Shown piece after piece: positions 3,998 to 35,986 of a stretch of DNA of 37,871 bases. Location of the stretch: positions 1-37,871 of the forward strand of contig JASHPI010000039.1 of the NCBI GenBank assembly GCA_030038215.1. Direction: 5' to 3'. Below the pieces are notes generated by a model. The model saw nothing but the letters and a program-made list of their open reading frames with translations, did not search any database and was not told where the DNA came from. The DNA is from Vulcanimicrobiota bacterium. Lineage in GTDB: Bacteria; Vulcanimicrobiota; Vulcanimicrobiia; Vulcanimicrobiales; Vulcanimicrobiaceae. The position numbers and the translations under genes are program-made. The first letter of the stretch is position 1; each line of letters opens with the position of its first letter.

Positions 3998-5218
3998 ATG
4001 ATCAGCAAGTCCTCGTGGCCCCTGCGCCTTGTGGCCGTTGCCATAATAGCTGCTTTAGGCGCGGTCGTAACGCGCACCACGTCTCTTCACATTGCGTCCG
4101 CCCAGTCTCAGTATCTGCCGCAGTCCCATCTGGTGCTGCTCAGCGCGCGCGACGTCAACGTCGCAGCGAGCACCGCGGTTATTCCCATTCATCGCGGGGT
4201 TGCGCACGGGGAAACGGTCTGGTACATCATTACGGATGCTTCCGACTTCGGCATCGCACGCGATCTCAACGTGCTATATGCACCCAAGCTCGCAAATATG
4301 GCCATCAACTGCCCTGAATGCGTCCAGACGGCGACCTTGGGTAAGCCAACCGGCAAGTTTAACAACGACGCCGTTCTGCACTTCCAAGACGCACCGAATT
4401 TCGCCCCGACGCGCGTATATGTTCCTTCAGCCACCGGATTTCCGCCCTTGAAGGCGTCGCCCGGTGCAGTGGGCGGACCGCGCTACTCGCCCTTCGTGCG
4501 CATCGCAGGATCCGACGTCATATATAACATGCCGATTGTCGCGACCGGTAACGGGCCATTCGACGTGATTCATCATACGAACACTCACGACCGCGTTCTT
4601 GCGATCGACACCAGAGAAGATGAAGACGGACCCGAGGTGACGATGCTGCTGGCGCATGGCTTCGATTCGGGCCAGCCGATCGTCTATCTGAGCACTGAAG
4701 CTTCGGATCCCGGGGCCGCGACCGTTGAACGCGCCACTTATGTACCCTTGCTGAACCACGCGTCATTCGCCAACGGTGACGATAATCTGGGCTCGGCGCG
4801 CGAACGCATCTTCGTTTTCGTCAACGGTCCTACATCGCCGGATACCGGGCAAGGTTTGATGTACCTTGGCCTACACGGTAATCTCGGTGAAAATGCGACG
4901 CTAGCGAATTCGTCGACGCTCGGTTCGCCGCTAAACGTCCAAGGGGATTTCCCTTCACTCGCCGATCCACGCCACGCAAACGCCTATAGCCCGCTGTGGG
5001 ACGTTCAGCTCGGCGTTTGGACGGCCTCGGCTGTCAAGAGTGGAAAGAACGTGCGTCAGACCGATGAGAATCAAATTCTCAATCTCGTTGGCGAAGGGTA
5101 CCTGACGGGACCAGGCGGTGCACCATTTGGATCGGTCTTTGTCGTGAACTGTCCGCCCGTGGCGTACGTGAATCAACGGCCCGATAAAGATCTCGCGAGC
5201 AACGTCTTCAACCGATGA
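3998..5218 (+). CDS. Secreted protein of unknown function
   Basis: Signal-peptide-like N-terminus, GGAGG before ATG, ATGA overlap with the downstream cupredoxin gene; family not recognised. Confidence 0.75.
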   Translation: MISKSSWPLRLVAVAIIAALGAVVTRTTSLHIASAQSQYLPQSHLVLLSARDVNVAASTAVIPIHRGVAHGETVWYIITDASDFGIARDLNVLYAPKLANMAINCPECVQTATLGKPTGKFNNDAVLHFQDAPNFAPTRVYVPSATGFPPLKASPGAVGGPRYSPFVRIAGSDVIYNMPIVATGNGPFDVIHHTNTHDRVLAIDTREDEDGPEVTMLLAHGFDSGQPIVYLSTEASDPGAATVERATYVPLLNHASFANGDDNLGSARERIFVFVNGPTSPDTGQGLMYLGLHGNLGENATLANSSTLGSPLNVQGDFPSLADPRHANAYSPLWDVQLGVWTASAVKSGKNVRQTDENQILNLVGEGYLTGPGGAPFGSVFVVNCPPVAYVNQRPDKDLASNVFNR

Positions 5219-5571
5219 GACGCAAACGAGGCGCCCTTCTTGCCGGCCTCCTTCTTTGGTTATCCGCAGGAGCTGCGGTTGCCGATACCCTGCCGCCCGT
5301 GCGAGTAGTCATTCACGATCATGCCTTCGTGCCGCGCGTCGTAGATGTTAAGACGGGTCAGGAGATTATTTGGCTTAATACAGATCAAGATCCGCACACG
5401 GTTACGAGCGGGACTCACGATACCGGCGACGGGCGCTGGCCGAGCTCCCCTCTCATCGCAGACGGACAAACGTTCAAGCTCCGTCTGAATCGACCCGGGA
5501 CGTACCCGTATTTCTGCAAGCCACATCAATTTGAAGCCTCAATGCACGGCACGATCGTCGTGTCACCCTGA
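5215..5571 (+). CDS. Small secreted cupredoxin (plastocyanin/amicyanin-like blue copper protein)
   Basis: DQDPHTVTSGTHD...GTYPYFCKPHQFEASMHGTIVV gives a His-Cys-His-Met type 1 copper ligand set. Confidence 0.88.
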   Translation: MRRKRGALLAGLLLWLSAGAAVADTLPPVRVVIHDHAFVPRVVDVKTGQEIIWLNTDQDPHTVTSGTHDTGDGRWPSSPLIADGQTFKLRLNRPGTYPYFCKPHQFEASMHGTIVVSP

Positions 5572-5600: not shown

Positions 5601-7646
5601 CTATTTTGCGAGCTTGAAAATGGCCACCGTGTCGCCGTACGGATAACCCAGCTGGAAGTTACCTCCAGCGGCGACGGCGACGTACTGCGTTCCGCCAACC
5701 TCGTAGGTGATCGGCGGCGCGTTCACGCCGGCGCCAAGATTGAACCGCCAGAGCTGCTGCCCAGTCGTCGCGTTGAACGCATCAAACCACCCGTTACCTT
5801 CGCCCGTGAAGACGAGATTGCCGGCCGTCGCGAGCGCGCCGCCGATCAACGGCTGTGGCGCCATATATTGCCACGCGATCTTTCCTGTGTCGACGTTCAG
5901 GGCGACGAACGGTCCGTTCTGAACGCCGTTCGGCTCGACGTTCGTGAAGGCGCTGCCCAAGCGGATCTGCCCCGCGGATTGCGTAGGCGGCTGCGTCGTG
6001 AAACGCATCAGCTGATTCATCGCAAGGATGTAGAGTAGATGCGTTTGCGGGGAGTACGCGGGCGGCGACCACTCGGAGCCGCCGTTCGCTCCGGGAAGCA
6101 TGTCGACGCCCGCTTTCGTGGGCGTCGTGAACATGTTCGGGGACATCATAACGTAAGGGTCGGATTTGCGGATAAGCGCTCCGGTTGCCCGGTCAAGGAT
6201 GAAGACCCAGCCGACCTTGCCCGCCTCGCCGGCAGCCGGCACCGTTTTGCCGTTCTCGCTGACATCGAAGAGCACGACCGGGCTCACCGCGTCGTAGTCC
6301 CAAACGTCGTGCTTGACTTCTTGGTAATACCACTTCAAGGTGCCGGTGTCGGCGTCGAGCGCGACGATCGAGTCGGTGTAGAGATTATCACCTACGCGGC
6401 TGGTGCCGTAGAGATCGGGATTCGGATTCCCGGTGCTGAAGATGACCAGCCCGAGCTTCGGGTCGATGGCGGGCGTGGTCCACGCCATGCCGCCGCCTTC
6501 TTTCCATGAGTCGCCGGCGAAAGACTTGGGGTCGGTCGAGTCCCACCGCCACTTCTGCGCGCCGATATTGGCGTCGAAGGCCTCGACGAATCCCCGGATC
6601 GCCCATTCGCCGCCGGCGCTGCCGACGATGATTTCGTTCTTATATATCTGCGGGGCCATCGTTTCCGAGTAACCCAAACGCGGATCGGCGATCGCTTTAC
6701 TCCACAGGACGTTGCCGTTTGTCGCGTCCAGCGCGATCAGATGATCGTCGAGCGTTACGACATAGACCTTGCCGTACCCGACGGCGACGCCGCGATTAAC
6801 GGGACCGCAGCAGATTTGAAACAAGCCGAGATTGTCGGTGGTCTCCCATAGGCGCTCGCCGGTTGCGGCGTTGAGCGCGCTGATCATCATCTTGCTGTTG
6901 ACCACCGGCGTCGTAAGATACATCACGCCGTTTACGACGACCGGCGTGGTCTCGAAACTCGCAGTCATTCCCGTCTGCAGCAGAGCAACCGGCGTTAGTG
7001 ACGCAACATTGCCTGCATTGATCTGCGTTAGCGGCGAGTAGCGCTGATTGTCGTACGTGCGACCGTCGAGCAGCCAATTCGCGCCGTCGGGCGAACCGGC
7101 AAGCATCATGTCGTCGGTGACGTTCACGTCGGCGCCTGCAGGCAGCGGCTCAAACTGCGCGGTAGCCGGAGGCGCGACGCGCACGATTTCATTGGTATTC
7201 GGAGCCGGAACTCCGCTGTGCACGACCGCGAGCGTGTCAATCCTCGCCCGCCCGACGTTTAACGGGGCGTTGCCGGCGGGGAACCCGTTTTGGCTCAGGA
7301 TGAACGCGGTGACCGCGAGGTAATCGCTCGAGCTCAGACTCCCCGGATTGTCCGCGGGCATCTGCTTCGCGATGAAGTCGTACAGGCCGTACGCCGTCTT
7401 ACTGCCTGTCAGGTAGGCCTGAAAGTCCGCGCCGGCGAGCGCGGGTCCAGCCTGTCCCGAGAGGTTCGCCCCGTGACACGTAGCGCAGTGCGCCGCATAG
7501 ACGATCTGCCCACGCGTCGCTTGCGAAGCGGTGAAATAGCGGGTGCTCGCGGCATGCGCCGCTGCAGTGGACGCTGCGGCGATAGCCACGGCGACGAGAG
7601 CGATGCTTCCCCGGCGAAACCATTCGACCCAAGCTGGAACGGGCAT
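5601..7646 (-). CDS. PQQ-dependent alcohol dehydrogenase with N-terminal cytochrome c domain
   Basis: CATCH heme motif at 7473-7487; vicinal CC (LFQICCGPVNRG) at 6807-6812; GDNLYTDSIVALDADTGTLKWYYQEVKHDVWDYD quinoprotein motif. Confidence 0.92.
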   Translation of the reverse strand: MPVPAWVEWFRRGSIALVAVAIAAASTAAAHAASTRYFTASQATRGQIVYAAHCATCHGANLSGQAGPALAGADFQAYLTGSKTAYGLYDFIAKQMPADNPGSLSSSDYLAVTAFILSQNGFPAGNAPLNVGRARIDTLAVVHSGVPAPNTNEIVRVAPPATAQFEPLPAGADVNVTDDMMLAGSPDGANWLLDGRTYDNQRYSPLTQINAGNVASLTPVALLQTGMTASFETTPVVVNGVMYLTTPVVNSKMMISALNAATGERLWETTDNLGLFQICCGPVNRGVAVGYGKVYVVTLDDHLIALDATNGNVLWSKAIADPRLGYSETMAPQIYKNEIIVGSAGGEWAIRGFVEAFDANIGAQKWRWDSTDPKSFAGDSWKEGGGMAWTTPAIDPKLGLVIFSTGNPNPDLYGTSRVGDNLYTDSIVALDADTGTLKWYYQEVKHDVWDYDAVSPVVLFDVSENGKTVPAAGEAGKVGWVFILDRATGALIRKSDPYVMMSPNMFTTPTKAGVDMLPGANGGSEWSPPAYSPQTHLLYILAMNQLMRFTTQPPTQSAGQIRLGSAFTNVEPNGVQNGPFVALNVDTGKIAWQYMAPQPLIGGALATAGNLVFTGEGNGWFDAFNATTGQQLWRFNLGAGVNAPPITYEVGGTQYVAVAAGGNFQLGYPYGDTVAIFKLAK

Positions 7647-8633: not shown

Positions 8634-10262
8634 ATGTCTCAACAATCCGTTCGTGACGTAACATTTCAACTGCTGCGCGAGCTCGGCATCACAACCGTCT
8701 TTGGCAACTTGGGTTCAACCGAAGAGACCTTCCTGACGAACTTCCCGCACGACTTTCGTTACGTGTTGGCTCCTCAAGAAGCGTCCGTAGTAGGTATCGC
8801 CGACGGTTTTGCGCAGGTGTCTCGACGGCCGGCGCTGGTGAATCTGCACACGACCGCGACCGGCAATGGGTTGGGGAATCTAGCTACGGCGTTCCAAGGT
8901 AAGGCGCCGCTCATTGTGACCGCGGGTCAGCAGACACGCGAGATGCTCCTTTTGGAACCGATGCTAACCGATGTCGAACCCACCGCCCTATTGCGTCCTT
9001 GGGTCAAGTGGGCGTACGAGCCCGTGCGGGCAAAGGATGTTCCGGCTGCGTTTATGCGCGCCGTGGCGACCGCAGTGCAGCCGCCGGCAGGTCCGGTTTT
9101 TCTGTCGTTGCCGCTGGGTGATTGGGACGAACCCTGCGACGCTGGGGCAGTGGTGAGGACCGTAAGCCGGCGGGTCGCTCCCGACCCGACGCGTTTGTCT
9201 GAGTTTGCCGAGGCGCTGCGCGAAGCAAAGTCGCCCGTTTTGATTTACGGGGCCGACATCGCGCGAGGCAGCGGCTGGCCCCAGGCCGTGGCGCTTGCCG
9301 AGACGCTCGGTGCGACCGTGTGGGCCGCGCCATCTTCAGAACAGGCTCCCTTTCCGGAAGACCATCCCCTGTATGCCGGTGGCTTGCCATTCGCGATGGG
9401 GCCGTTAAGTCAAAAACTGGACGGCCATGATGTGGCGGTGGTCGTCGGCGCGCCCGTCTTCCGCTATTATCCTTACGCGCCCGGCCCATACTTGCCGCGT
9501 GGACTTCGGCTACTGCATATTTCCGACGATCCGGCCGAGACGGCGCGAGCCCCGGTCGGCGACAGCTTGATCGCAGATGCGGTCTTGTCTCTCGAAGCGC
9601 TTCGCGAGCTGCTCCGCGATTGCACGCCGAAGCTCAAGAGGGCGCGCGAGACGGTAGCACATCGTATGGCGGCCTACCCACCCGGCGTACCCGAAGCCTC
9701 GGATGGACGCATGAGATCTGCAGAACTATTCCGCACGCTCAACGAGGTCCGGCCGGCCAACGCCATCGTTATCGAAGAAAGCCCGTCGAATCTTCCCGAT
9801 CTTCACACCGAATGGCCGATCACGCAACCCGATGGGTTCTATACCTCTGCCAGCGGAGTTCTCGGTTGGGGTCTCCCGGCATCCGTCGGTATTGCACTCG
9901 CGGAGCGCGACTCCGGGCGCAACCGTCCGGTGACCGCCGTTATCGGCGAAGGCTCCTTTCAGTATGCGGTTCAGTCGCTATGGACCGCTGCGCAGTTGAA
10001 TCTTCCCTTGCTCGTTGTGGTGCCTCGTAATGACGAGTACTGCATCCTCAAGTCGTTTGCCAAGTTCGAGCACGCGTCGGGAGTGCCGGCTCTCGACATC
10101 CCGGGATACGACATCGTTTCCATTGCAAAGGGCTACGGGTGCGACGCGGTGCGCTTGAACGATGTTGGAGCGATCAAGAAAGCGGCGGTCGAAGCCTGGA
10201 ACAAGTCGAAGCCCACCGTGCTGGACGTACCGATTTGCCGGCAAGTACCTCCACTGTTTTAA
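8634..10262 (+). CDS. Thiamine-diphosphate enzyme, benzoylformate decarboxylase-like
   Basis: FGNLGSTEETFL, LAPQEASVVGIADGFAQ, NLHTTATGNGLGNL, PLIVTAGQQTREML align with recalled Pseudomonas putida benzoylformate decarboxylase. Confidence 0.85.
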   Translation: MSQQSVRDVTFQLLRELGITTVFGNLGSTEETFLTNFPHDFRYVLAPQEASVVGIADGFAQVSRRPALVNLHTTATGNGLGNLATAFQGKAPLIVTAGQQTREMLLLEPMLTDVEPTALLRPWVKWAYEPVRAKDVPAAFMRAVATAVQPPAGPVFLSLPLGDWDEPCDAGAVVRTVSRRVAPDPTRLSEFAEALREAKSPVLIYGADIARGSGWPQAVALAETLGATVWAAPSSEQAPFPEDHPLYAGGLPFAMGPLSQKLDGHDVAVVVGAPVFRYYPYAPGPYLPRGLRLLHISDDPAETARAPVGDSLIADAVLSLEALRELLRDCTPKLKRARETVAHRMAAYPPGVPEASDGRMRSAELFRTLNEVRPANAIVIEESPSNLPDLHTEWPITQPDGFYTSASGVLGWGLPASVGIALAERDSGRNRPVTAVIGEGSFQYAVQSLWTAAQLNLPLLVVVPRNDEYCILKSFAKFEHASGVPALDIPGYDIVSIAKGYGCDAVRLNDVGAIKKAAVEAWNKSKPTVLDVPICRQVPPLF

Positions 10263-32584: not shown

Positions 32585-33682
32585 TTGGCAGAGCAGAGAG
32601 CGCAGCCTATCGCCGTAGATCGTGGCTTCTGGACCGTCACCCTGGTCTTGGCGGTGCTGGCGGTCGCCTCGATAGTCTTCTGGATTCTGTTCCCGATTAG
32701 CAAATATCTGCCCGAGGCCATCATCACCGCGCGCCAAGTCGACACGATGTTCCGTTTCATGGCCGCGAGCGGCAGCGCGCTCTACGTCTTCATCGTGGGA
32801 TACTTGATCTATTTCTCGATCGCGTTTCGCGCGAAGGCCACCGATCCGCCGGATGCGATCGGCGTGCAGATCCACGACAATCCCAAGCTGGAGTTCTGGT
32901 GGACGCTGCTTCCGGCAATTTTCGTGTTGCTGCTATCCGTCATCAGCGTACGAATTTGGTACGAGATCCTGCTGGAGCCCGAGAACGGCTTGGTCATCCA
33001 AGCGATCGGCCATCAGTTTTACTTCTCGTTCCGCTATCCGAACGTCAACGGTGAGATCACCGACGAGATGCATCTGCCTCTCGGCGAACCGGTCACGCTG
33101 AATTTGACCTCGGCCGACGTCATTCACGGATTTTGGGTGCCAGCGATGCGGCTCAAGAACGACACCGTTCCGGGTTTGGTGACGACGATTCGATTCACGC
33201 CGCAGTTGGCCGGGCGCTACGAGATCATCTGCACGCAGTTCTGCGGCGTGTTGCACAGCCAGATGCACAAGCAGGTGCTGGTGATCGAGGATAGGGCCTC
33301 GTTCGATAAGTGGTATCAAGGTTGGCAGCAGCGCAACGCGCACGTCAGCAATGCTTTGCCCGCCGCGCCCGGGCAGGCGATCTCACTGCAAGGCGGCGAC
33401 GCGGCAGCCGGCAAGACGCTCTTCGCGCAGAAGTGCACCGCTTGTCACAAGCTTGCGCCCTTCGATCAGCGACTCGTCGGCCCGGGTTTGCAGGGCGTGC
33501 TGCACGATCCGGCTCATCCCAACCTCGTCAACGGCAAGCCGGCGACGCCCGAGAACGTGGCCGGGATCCTGCAGAACGGCTTCACGGGCAGTCTGGGGAC
33601 GATGCCCAATGCGAGCGCAAACGGCCTGTCATCGCAAGACATCGCCAACTTGGTCGCGTTCTTGAATACACTGAAATTATGA
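32585..33682 (+). CDS. coxB: Cytochrome c oxidase subunit II with C-terminal cytochrome c domain (caa3-type)
   Basis: CuA motif CTQFCGVLHSQMHKQV; heme motif CTACH at 33434-33448; TTG start after TGGAGA. Confidence 0.93.
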   Translation: MAEQRAQPIAVDRGFWTVTLVLAVLAVASIVFWILFPISKYLPEAIITARQVDTMFRFMAASGSALYVFIVGYLIYFSIAFRAKATDPPDAIGVQIHDNPKLEFWWTLLPAIFVLLLSVISVRIWYEILLEPENGLVIQAIGHQFYFSFRYPNVNGEITDEMHLPLGEPVTLNLTSADVIHGFWVPAMRLKNDTVPGLVTTIRFTPQLAGRYEIICTQFCGVLHSQMHKQVLVIEDRASFDKWYQGWQQRNAHVSNALPAAPGQAISLQGGDAAAGKTLFAQKCTACHKLAPFDQRLVGPGLQGVLHDPAHPNLVNGKPATPENVAGILQNGFTGSLGTMPNASANGLSSQDIANLVAFLNTLKL

Positions 33683-33698
33683 TAAAATCGAAGGTAGC

Positions 33699-35375
33699 AT
33701 GTCAGTAGCAGCGGTCCACAGCGGCGGCATCGCCGATCACATCCACCCCGAGCCGCAGGGGTTTATCCGAAGATACGTTTTCTCGCTCGATCACAAGATC
33801 ATCGGCATCCAATACCTGGTTACCGGCTTTGTCTTCTTCATGCTCTCGGGATTGCTGGCCGAGACGATCCGCACCCAGCTGCTTAATCCTAATGGCGGTT
33901 TCGTTTCGCCCGAAACCTACAACGAAGTCTACAGCATACACGGAAGCGCGATGGTTTGGCTGGTCGTCATCCCGCTGCTGACCGGCGGCTTCGGCAATCT
34001 CGTTTTCCCGGTTCAGATCGGCGCTCGCGACGTGGCATTTCCATGGCTCAACATGCTGAGCTTCTGGATCTTTCCGGTCTCGGGCTTGATGCTCTTCTCG
34101 TCGTTTCTGATGGGCGCCCCCACCGCAGGCTGGATGGAGTATCCGCCGGTTTCGCTGCAGGGTCAAGCCGGAACCTCGATGTGGGCCGCGGCCATCTTCC
34201 TGGTCGGCGTCAGCTCGACGATGACTGGGTTGAACTTCCTTGTGACGATCTTGAAGATGCGTGCACCCGGCATGACCTTCACGCGGATGCCGCTCTTCGT
34301 CTGGGGACAGTTCGCGACCGCGCCGCTGCTGATGATCGCGACGACGGCGCTGGCCGCGGCGCTGGCCGCGCTTTTCATCAACCGCGAGTTCGGAGTGCCG
34401 TTTTACGATCCGACCAAAGGCGGCAGCCCGGTGATGTGGCAGCACATGTTCTGGTTCTATTCGCATCCGGCCGTCTACATCATGATCCTGCCGGCCTTCG
34501 GCATTATCTCCGAGGTGCTGCCGACGTTCGCGCGCAAGTCGATCTTCGGCTACAAGATGATCGCCTTCTCGTCGGCTGCGATCGCTTTGCTGGGTTTCAT
34601 GGTTTGGGCCCATCACATGTTCACATCGGGCCTGGCGCCGTTCTTGCAGCTGCCCTTCATGATCCTCACCTACATCATCGGCGTGCCGACCGGAATCAAG
34701 ATCTTCTCCTGGACGGCAACCCTGTGGGGCGGAAAGATCCACTATTCGACCGCGATGCTCTTTGCGATCGGGTTCGTGGCGTTGTTCACGCTCGGCGGGA
34801 TCACCGGCATCTTCCTGGCCGCGATTCCGTTCGATCTCCACGTGCACGGAACGTACTTCATCGTAGGCCACATCCATTACGTGCTGGTCGGGGGAAGCAT
34901 GATGGGCATCTTCGCCGGGATGTATTATTGGTTCCCGAAAATGTCCGGGCGATTATTGAACGAGACGCTCGGCAAGTGGCATTTCTGGCTGTTCTTCATC
35001 GGCTTCAACGGCACGTTCATACCGATGCACTGGCTTGGGATGCTCGGCATGCCGCGCGAAGTCGCGACCTACGATCCGCAATTCACGTTTTGGAACCGCT
35101 TCGAGACGTTTGCGTCGTATCTGATGACGTTCGCCATCTTGATCTTCTTCGTGAACATCATCTGGAGCATCCGATATGGAAAGAAGGCCGGCGCCAATCC
35201 GTGGGGCGCACGAACCCTCGAGTGGCAAGTTCCATCGCCGCCGCACTATTACAACTTCAAGCACGTTCCGACCGTCTACGGCTTGCCGTACGACTTCTCG
35301 CAGCCGCTGCCCTATAAGGGCCTCGAAGAGGAGCTGACGGACTCGCCGCCTGCGGTCGCGGCGGGGGCGCACTGA
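33699..35375 (+). CDS. coxA: Cytochrome c oxidase subunit I
   Basis: SIHGSAMVWLVV, FWFYSHPAVYIMILPAFGIISE, VWAHHMFTSG, YFIVGHIHYVLVGG: heme-copper oxidase core motifs. Confidence 0.97.
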   Translation: MSVAAVHSGGIADHIHPEPQGFIRRYVFSLDHKIIGIQYLVTGFVFFMLSGLLAETIRTQLLNPNGGFVSPETYNEVYSIHGSAMVWLVVIPLLTGGFGNLVFPVQIGARDVAFPWLNMLSFWIFPVSGLMLFSSFLMGAPTAGWMEYPPVSLQGQAGTSMWAAAIFLVGVSSTMTGLNFLVTILKMRAPGMTFTRMPLFVWGQFATAPLLMIATTALAAALAALFINREFGVPFYDPTKGGSPVMWQHMFWFYSHPAVYIMILPAFGIISEVLPTFARKSIFGYKMIAFSSAAIALLGFMVWAHHMFTSGLAPFLQLPFMILTYIIGVPTGIKIFSWTATLWGGKIHYSTAMLFAIGFVALFTLGGITGIFLAAIPFDLHVHGTYFIVGHIHYVLVGGSMMGIFAGMYYWFPKMSGRLLNETLGKWHFWLFFIGFNGTFIPMHWLGMLGMPREVATYDPQFTFWNRFETFASYLMTFAILIFFVNIIWSIRYGKKAGANPWGARTLEWQVPSPPHYYNFKHVPTVYGLPYDFSQPLPYKGLEEELTDSPPAVAAGAH

Positions 35376-35986
35376 TGGCCGTCGCATCGCTCGCGCCCGA
35401 CGCCGGAGAGGTCGATCAGCTCTATATCGAGACCCGGGAGCTGCGGCTGCAGGGATTTCTCTTCTTCCTGATCAGCGACTGCGTGCTCTTCTCGTCGTTC
35501 ATTTTTGCCTATCTCTACATGCGTAACAGCGGGCAGGGATGGCCGCCGCCCGGGGTTCAGCGCCTGGACGTTGCCTTTGCCGCCTGGAACTCGGTCGTGC
35601 TCTTCGGTTCTGGCGCCACGATGCATTACGCGCTCGAGAATTTCAAGTACGGGCACTTCATGCGGTACATGTGGTTTCTGTTGGCAACGATCGTCCTCGG
35701 CGTAATGTTCCTCGGCGGTCAAGCCTACGAATACAATCACTTGATCTTCGGCGAGCACGTGACGTGGGCGGGAAGCGGCATCTTCGGCGCGTCCTTTTTC
35801 ACGCTGACCGGCATGCACGGTTTCCACGTCTTCATCGGCGTTTGCTACCTCACGGTGCTGGTGCTGCAGTCGGCGGCCGGCGTCTATACGCGAGGAAAAT
35901 ATTTCGGGATCACCGCCGGCACGCTCTACTGGCACTTCGTCGACGTGATCTGGGTTGTGCTTTTCTCGATCTTCTATCTGCTGTAA
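35375..35986 (+). CDS. coxC: Cytochrome c oxidase subunit III
   Basis: FLFFLISDCVLFSSFIFAYLYM, LTGMHGFHVFIGVCYL, YWHFVDVIWVVLFSIFYLL; TGATG overlap with subunit I. Confidence 0.95.
   Translation: MAVASLAPDAGEVDQLYIETRELRLQGFLFFLISDCVLFSSFIFAYLYMRNSGQGWPPPGVQRLDVAFAAWNSVVLFGSGATMHYALENFKYGHFMRYMWFLLATIVLGVMFLGGQAYEYNHLIFGEHVTWAGSGIFGASFFTLTGMHGFHVFIGVCYLTVLVLQSAAGVYTRGKYFGITAGTLYWHFVDVIWVVLFSIFYLL

Follow-up and report, generated by a model that had tools for sequence, protein, structure and literature searches.

A putative PQQ-dependent quinohemoprotein alcohol dehydrogenase with an N-terminal heme c and a lanthanide-type metal site in Eremiobacterota

The gene at 5601..7646 (minus strand) of the 37,871-nucleotide stretch of DNA analyzed here (the window; contig C97) encodes P0001, a PQQ-dependent quinohemoprotein alcohol dehydrogenase (ADH) of 681 amino acids that comprises a signal peptide, a cytochrome c domain, a linker, and an eight-bladed propeller. 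Its host, a soil-dwelling member of the Eremiobacterota phylum, is represented by a genome of 2.35 Mb that is 85% complete. The reading we favor, with moderate confidence, is that P0001 is a periplasmic PQQ-dependent alcohol/aldehyde dehydrogenase from an uncharacterized clade, equipped with its own electron acceptor and a lanthanide-type site. Its substrate would be oxidized at a PQQ-metal center held by Glu347, Asn407, Asp450 (the catalytic base), and Asp452. Electrons would leave PQQH2 singly, probably via a Cys279–Cys280 ring, for the heme c of the N-terminal domain, which would then pass them to the aerobic respiratory chain; a caa3-type cytochrome oxidase is encoded at 32585–35986 (plus strand), where the open reading frames give subunit II, which bears a CTACH heme c motif at its C-terminus, subunit I, and subunit III. 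The substrates are probably alcohols or aldehydes of more than one carbon, not methanol.

Domain order and fold

The P0001 reading frame opens with ATG, ahead of which lies a ribosome-binding-site-like sequence, AGGGAGGG. Inspection of the protein sequence suggests a signal peptide at residues about 1–34 (7545..7646), with cleavage near AHA-AS, and P0001 is predicted to be exported. Pfam searches identified a class I cytochrome c domain (PF13442; residues 42–116, E 2e-10) and, C-terminal to it, a PQQ propeller (PF01011; residues 194–492, E 4e-87) that scored 294 bits against a curated cut-off of 26.7. These domains bear out an earlier note on this DNA, in which the gene was recognized as a PQQ-type alcohol dehydrogenase, and their order, together with the CATCH heme-attachment motif at residues 54–58, upholds the N-terminal heme c proposed there. 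The positions given in that note for WDYD (6291–6302), the vicinal Cys pair (6807–6812), and CATCH (7473–7487) are exact; these and all other P0001 features lie on the minus strand. Met96 (7359..7361) is the likely sixth (axial) heme ligand, judging from the architecture of class I cytochromes c. The CxxCH motif, including the heme cysteines and His58, and Met96 are invariant among 17 orthologs. The interdomain linker (residues 131–175; 7122..7256) is the least conserved part of the protein; mean identity to the orthologs is 37% there, 55% in the cytochrome, and 74% in the propeller. A closely related genome of the same genus (G103) has this gene (97% identity over 264 residues) together with the same genes downstream of it, which makes it improbable that the locus is an artifact of binning.

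All 17 orthologs that are complete enough to judge have the heme c at the N-terminus. It is C-terminal in several other PQQ-ADHs from Eremiobacterota (L034–L037) and again N-terminal in one distant relative that has no Cys pair (L029), which indicates that heme fusion arose more than once. In Caballeronia, the gene for an unfused sister enzyme is directly followed by one for a c-type diheme cytochrome (L058, 6608–7231), and this arrangement supports a role for the fused domain of P0001 as electron acceptor. A search of the available literature on PQQ dehydrogenases with an N-terminal heme returned nothing useful.

An AlphaFold2 model built from the single sequence (pLDDT 33) was discarded; one built with 18 aligned rows reached a mean pLDDT of 72 and a pTM of 0.70. 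The top Foldseek matches to the latter were exclusively PQQ-ADHs, namely 1yiq, PedH (TMt 0.81), the Gluconobacter membrane ADH, and XoxF. The model thus places P0001 in the PQQ-ADH fold, but it is too weak for geometry at the metal-site loops, with pLDDT below 50 at residues 275–281, 346–348, 373–385, and 521–525, which include the loops of the Cys pair, Glu347, and Glu525.

Active-site residues and phylogenetic position

P0001 was aligned with references from the PDB and a little over 40 relatives, and its sites were mapped by the residue numbers and roles of MxaF. The vicinal pair Cys279–Cys280, which would form the disulfide ring over PQQ, is intact, as the earlier note held, and is invariant in the orthologs. 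Glu347 (6606..6608) and Asn407 (6426..6428) correspond to the metal ligands Glu177 and Asn261 of MxaF, and Trp389 (6480..6482) to the PQQ-stacking Trp243; Arg285 is also present. Within WDYD (residues 449–452, in the motif KHDVWDYDAV), Asp450 aligns with the catalytic Asp303 of MxaF and Asp452 with the extra Asp of XoxF, giving a D-x-D arrangement; the extra position is occupied by Ala in MxaF and by Thr in type II ADHs. Glu347, Asn407, Asp450, and Asp452 together make up the full metal set found in XoxF (6dam, 4mae) and PedH (6zcv). Two pocket positions depart from MxaF: Lys477 (6216..6218) replaces Arg331, and Glu525 (6072..6074) replaces Asn394. The latter is a PQQ-pocket difference from XoxF and PedH; position 525 is Glu in P0001, Escherichia coli Gcd, and several other relatives but Asn or Asp in the MxaF, XoxF, and PedH references. 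All 12 of the PQQ, metal, and catalytic columns examined are invariant among the 17 orthologs, in which 40% of columns are invariant overall; the pattern is therefore not attributable to chance (~1.5e-5 if columns are independent).

A maximum-likelihood tree of 55 rows and 491 columns, with some long branches in other parts, places P0001 in its own 19-row clade with support of 100/100. The nearest enzymes are heme-less WDLD proteins from Eremiobacterota and Burkholderiaceae (24 rows together, 100/99), and P0001 lies outside a 21-row group (100/99) comprising XoxF/MxaF, PedH, and the type II ADHs. A phylogeny with XoxF, PedH, and quinohemoprotein ADHs had been proposed as a check in the earlier note, and P0001 joins none of these clades. 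Approximately unbiased (AU) tests rejected its union with XoxF/MxaF (p-AU 5e-6), with PedH, of the PedH/ExaF lanthanide ethanol dehydrogenases (p-AU 4e-38), and with the type II quinohemoprotein ADHs (p-AU 8e-136), whose heme is C-terminal. Its score against the methanol/ethanol family TIGR03075, 447 bits, is below the cut-off of 480, as is that of an ortholog (L020, 444 bits). By these comparisons, P0001 belongs to its own, uncharacterized branch of the PQQ-ADH family.

The closest PDB sequence is PedH from Pseudomonas putida (about 32% identity), ahead of the quinohemoprotein ADHs. PedH shares with P0001 the Glu/Asn/Asp/Asp metal set, the Cys pair, and the fold, but it has no fused heme and carries Arg and Asn in place of Lys477 and Glu525. 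XoxF enzymes (4mae, 6dam, 6oc5, 7o6z) likewise share D-x-D, the Cys pair, and both the Glu and the Asn ligand, yet they are unfused, are accompanied by xoxG/xoxJ, and also differ from P0001 at positions 477 and 525. The type II ADHs (1kv9, 1kb0, 1yiq) unite a PQQ propeller with heme c in a single chain and have Lys at the 477 position, but with the opposite domain order and Thr replacing the second Asp. The WDLD-type enzymes (Caballeronia, Paraburkholderia, and Eremiobacterota; L025–L027, L057, and L058) have the CCGPxNR, GGE, GKTG, and GGxEW/GGxDW motifs in common with P0001 and differ in lacking the heme domain. E. coli Gcd resembles P0001 in W-D-x-D, the Lys, and the Glu-Trp pocket residues, but it is membrane-anchored, is free of heme, and has neither the Cys pair nor the two metal ligands Glu and Asn. 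A further PQQ-ADH relative, encoded on a Roseomonas plasmid (L060) between genes for Rieske and 2Fe-2S/molybdopterin enzymes, is also without the Cys-Cys pair.

PQQ supply, metal use, and alternative readings

PQQ synthesis genes had been reported as missing from the window, and this holds, but pqqC and pqqE are present on contig C16 of the same genome, which is thus predicted to make PQQ. By the tree, a second PQQ-ADH of this genome is a true XoxF, encoded on contig C136 (293–1861; L002/L081); the contig is short, the gene lies at its end, and an rpoB-like gene accompanies it. A MoxJ-like gene was found near XoxF of this type in nine of nine other Eremiobacterota carriers found. MoxJ-like genes mostly adjoin XoxF; at the loci of P0001 orthologs, no linked MoxJ/XoxJ gene was seen, nor any XoxG/XoxJ or lanthanide-uptake gene travelling with them.

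Orthologs of P0001 occur in 19 of 149 genomes of the phylum, and 10 of these carriers qualify as high-quality (≥90% complete, ≤5% contaminated). Only one of the 10 (G015) has PqqC. High-quality genomes of the phylum that contain at least one PQQ-ADH gene and no PqqC match are G008, G042, G030, G006, G035, G041, G054, G126, and G129, of which G054 even has XoxF; the G008 genome, one 3.5 Mb contig that is 99% complete, encodes neither PqqC nor a PqqE above the cut-off. A PqqU-like receptor, the PQQ importer, had no match in the 149 genomes, in a search that found the E. coli control. Orthologs and PqqC tend to occur apart, but not significantly so (Fisher p 0.16), and our claim is therefore limited to this: an ortholog can be carried without PQQ synthesis. 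The absence of PqqC from most carriers is unexpected and is the least explained part of this analysis. Carriers of this kind would either scavenge PQQ or hold an enzyme that is idle or empty there, and the pattern raises the question of PQQ sharing in soil. Outside the phylum, orthologs with 70% identity (L005, L006, L007, and L011) come from MAGs of 5.8–6.9 Mb titled Gammaproteobacteria; pqqC is present in three ortholog-bearing MAGs so titled, and the occurrence of these orthologs suggests either transfer between phyla or misnamed MAGs. Two orthologs (L010, 1–2169; L013, 3315–5173) are broken across two or more reading frames, possibly by frameshifts or assembly errors.

The scarcity of PqqC among carriers, and its lack along with that of a PqqE above the cut-off in G008, could mean that P0001 is an "empty" quinoprotein whose propeller no longer binds PQQ and which is no dehydrogenase, and TIGR04528 (acido-empty-quinoprotein) is indeed its second-best NCBIfam match. 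That score (351 bits) is, however, far under the cut-off of 650, and the same model ranks first or second for all 10 family members tested, true XoxF included. The cut-off and the invariance of every checked PQQ-contact residue among the orthologs led us to reject this identity, and pqqC in the host genome and in the three gammaproteobacterial MAGs also speaks against it; we consider it very improbable. Assignment as a XoxF-type lanthanide methanol dehydrogenase would account for the four shared metal ligands but is scarcely credible given the rejected XoxF/MxaF clade and the separate XoxF of the host, of a type with a nearby MoxJ-like gene that the P0001 orthologs do not have. Polyvinyl alcohol dehydrogenase (PVADH) has an N-terminal heme c, and this heme-first order is what P0001 would share with it as an enzyme oxidizing polymers or sugar alcohols. 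The neighboring genes give no sign of polymer breakdown, and such a function is improbable.

The alternative with the greatest weight concerns the metal, and it turns on how informative D-x-D is. Published work (PMC8546591, PMC5487730) links the extra Asp of XoxF and PedH to lanthanides. In our alignment, it is present in 42 of 42 readable non-reference relatives (from Eremiobacterota, Proteobacteria, Deinococcus, and Streptomyces) and in Gcd, a Mg/Ca-using enzyme, as WDMD; among the aligned readable members, only the MxaF and type II quinohemoprotein references are without it. D-x-D occurs on both sides of the tree, and two changes suffice to explain its distribution. A survey of the ocean (PMC11996626) recorded the motif in 61% of 6,328 PQQ dehydrogenases, with 14 of 17 families having it in most or all of their members; it also notes that membrane glucose dehydrogenase (m-GDH) bears the motif yet is functional with Ca, Mg, Zn, or Sr. 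On its own, D-x-D is therefore a common, default state of the superfamily, suggestive of lanthanide use but not diagnostic. The lanthanide-type motif described in the earlier note thus stands as part of a four-residue Glu/Asn/Asp/Asp site of the XoxF/PedH kind, but not as a marker by itself.

P0001 might then be a quinohemoprotein that uses Ca (or Mg), its second Asp being inherited from the superfamily with no dependence on lanthanides, as in m-GDH, and the Lys and Glu pocket residues that it has in common with Gcd fit such an enzyme. Apart from D-x-D being so common, the pocket differences from XoxF and PedH at positions 477 and 525, the scarcity of PqqC among high-quality carriers, and the lack of accompanying XoxG/XoxJ or lanthanide-uptake genes at ortholog loci count against the favored reading. 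We give this a distinctly smaller, though real, chance: P0001 retains the Glu and Asn ligands that Gcd lacks, and the enzymes with the full set described in the sources used here, XoxF and PedH, use lanthanides. Because enzymes with a proven need for lanthanides have the same complete ligand set, Ln3+ is probably the native metal of P0001, with Ca2+ the less likely occupant.

A lanthanide-type site and a heme in one chain would be useful, as the lanthanide enzymes in the sources used here (XoxF and PedH) have no heme of their own. Electron transfer from a lanthanide-PQQ center could be studied directly, and the protein could serve direct-electron-transfer electrodes. The clade also offers a test, outside XoxF and PedH, of whether D-x-D with Glu and Asn predicts lanthanide use, as metagenome surveys assume. 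More tentatively, the orthologs may form a heme-first, lanthanide-using clade across Eremiobacterota whose members are mostly PQQ auxotrophs; if so, these bacteria would scavenge both rare-earth metal and PQQ, the latter by an uptake route other than the known receptor PqqU.

Neighboring genes

Gene neighborhoods around the P0001 orthologs showed no conservation beyond pairs of closely related loci. An HbpS/GlcG-like gene of a heme-binding family (PF03928; 7730..8467, minus strand) has a good ribosome-binding site and lies 83 bp upstream of P0001 in the same orientation, which makes it a possible operon partner; no such gene was found at other ortholog loci. Divergent from this pair, a thiamine-diphosphate enzyme (8634–10262, plus strand) exceeds, at 596 bits, the NCBIfam cut-off of PRK07092 (benzoylformate decarboxylase), an activity that would give aromatic aldehydes. 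Convergent with P0001, and directly after a gene for a DUF7482 protein (3998–5218), is a gene for a small exported cupredoxin resembling plastocyanin and amicyanin (5215–5571, plus strand), which is a possible alternative electron carrier.
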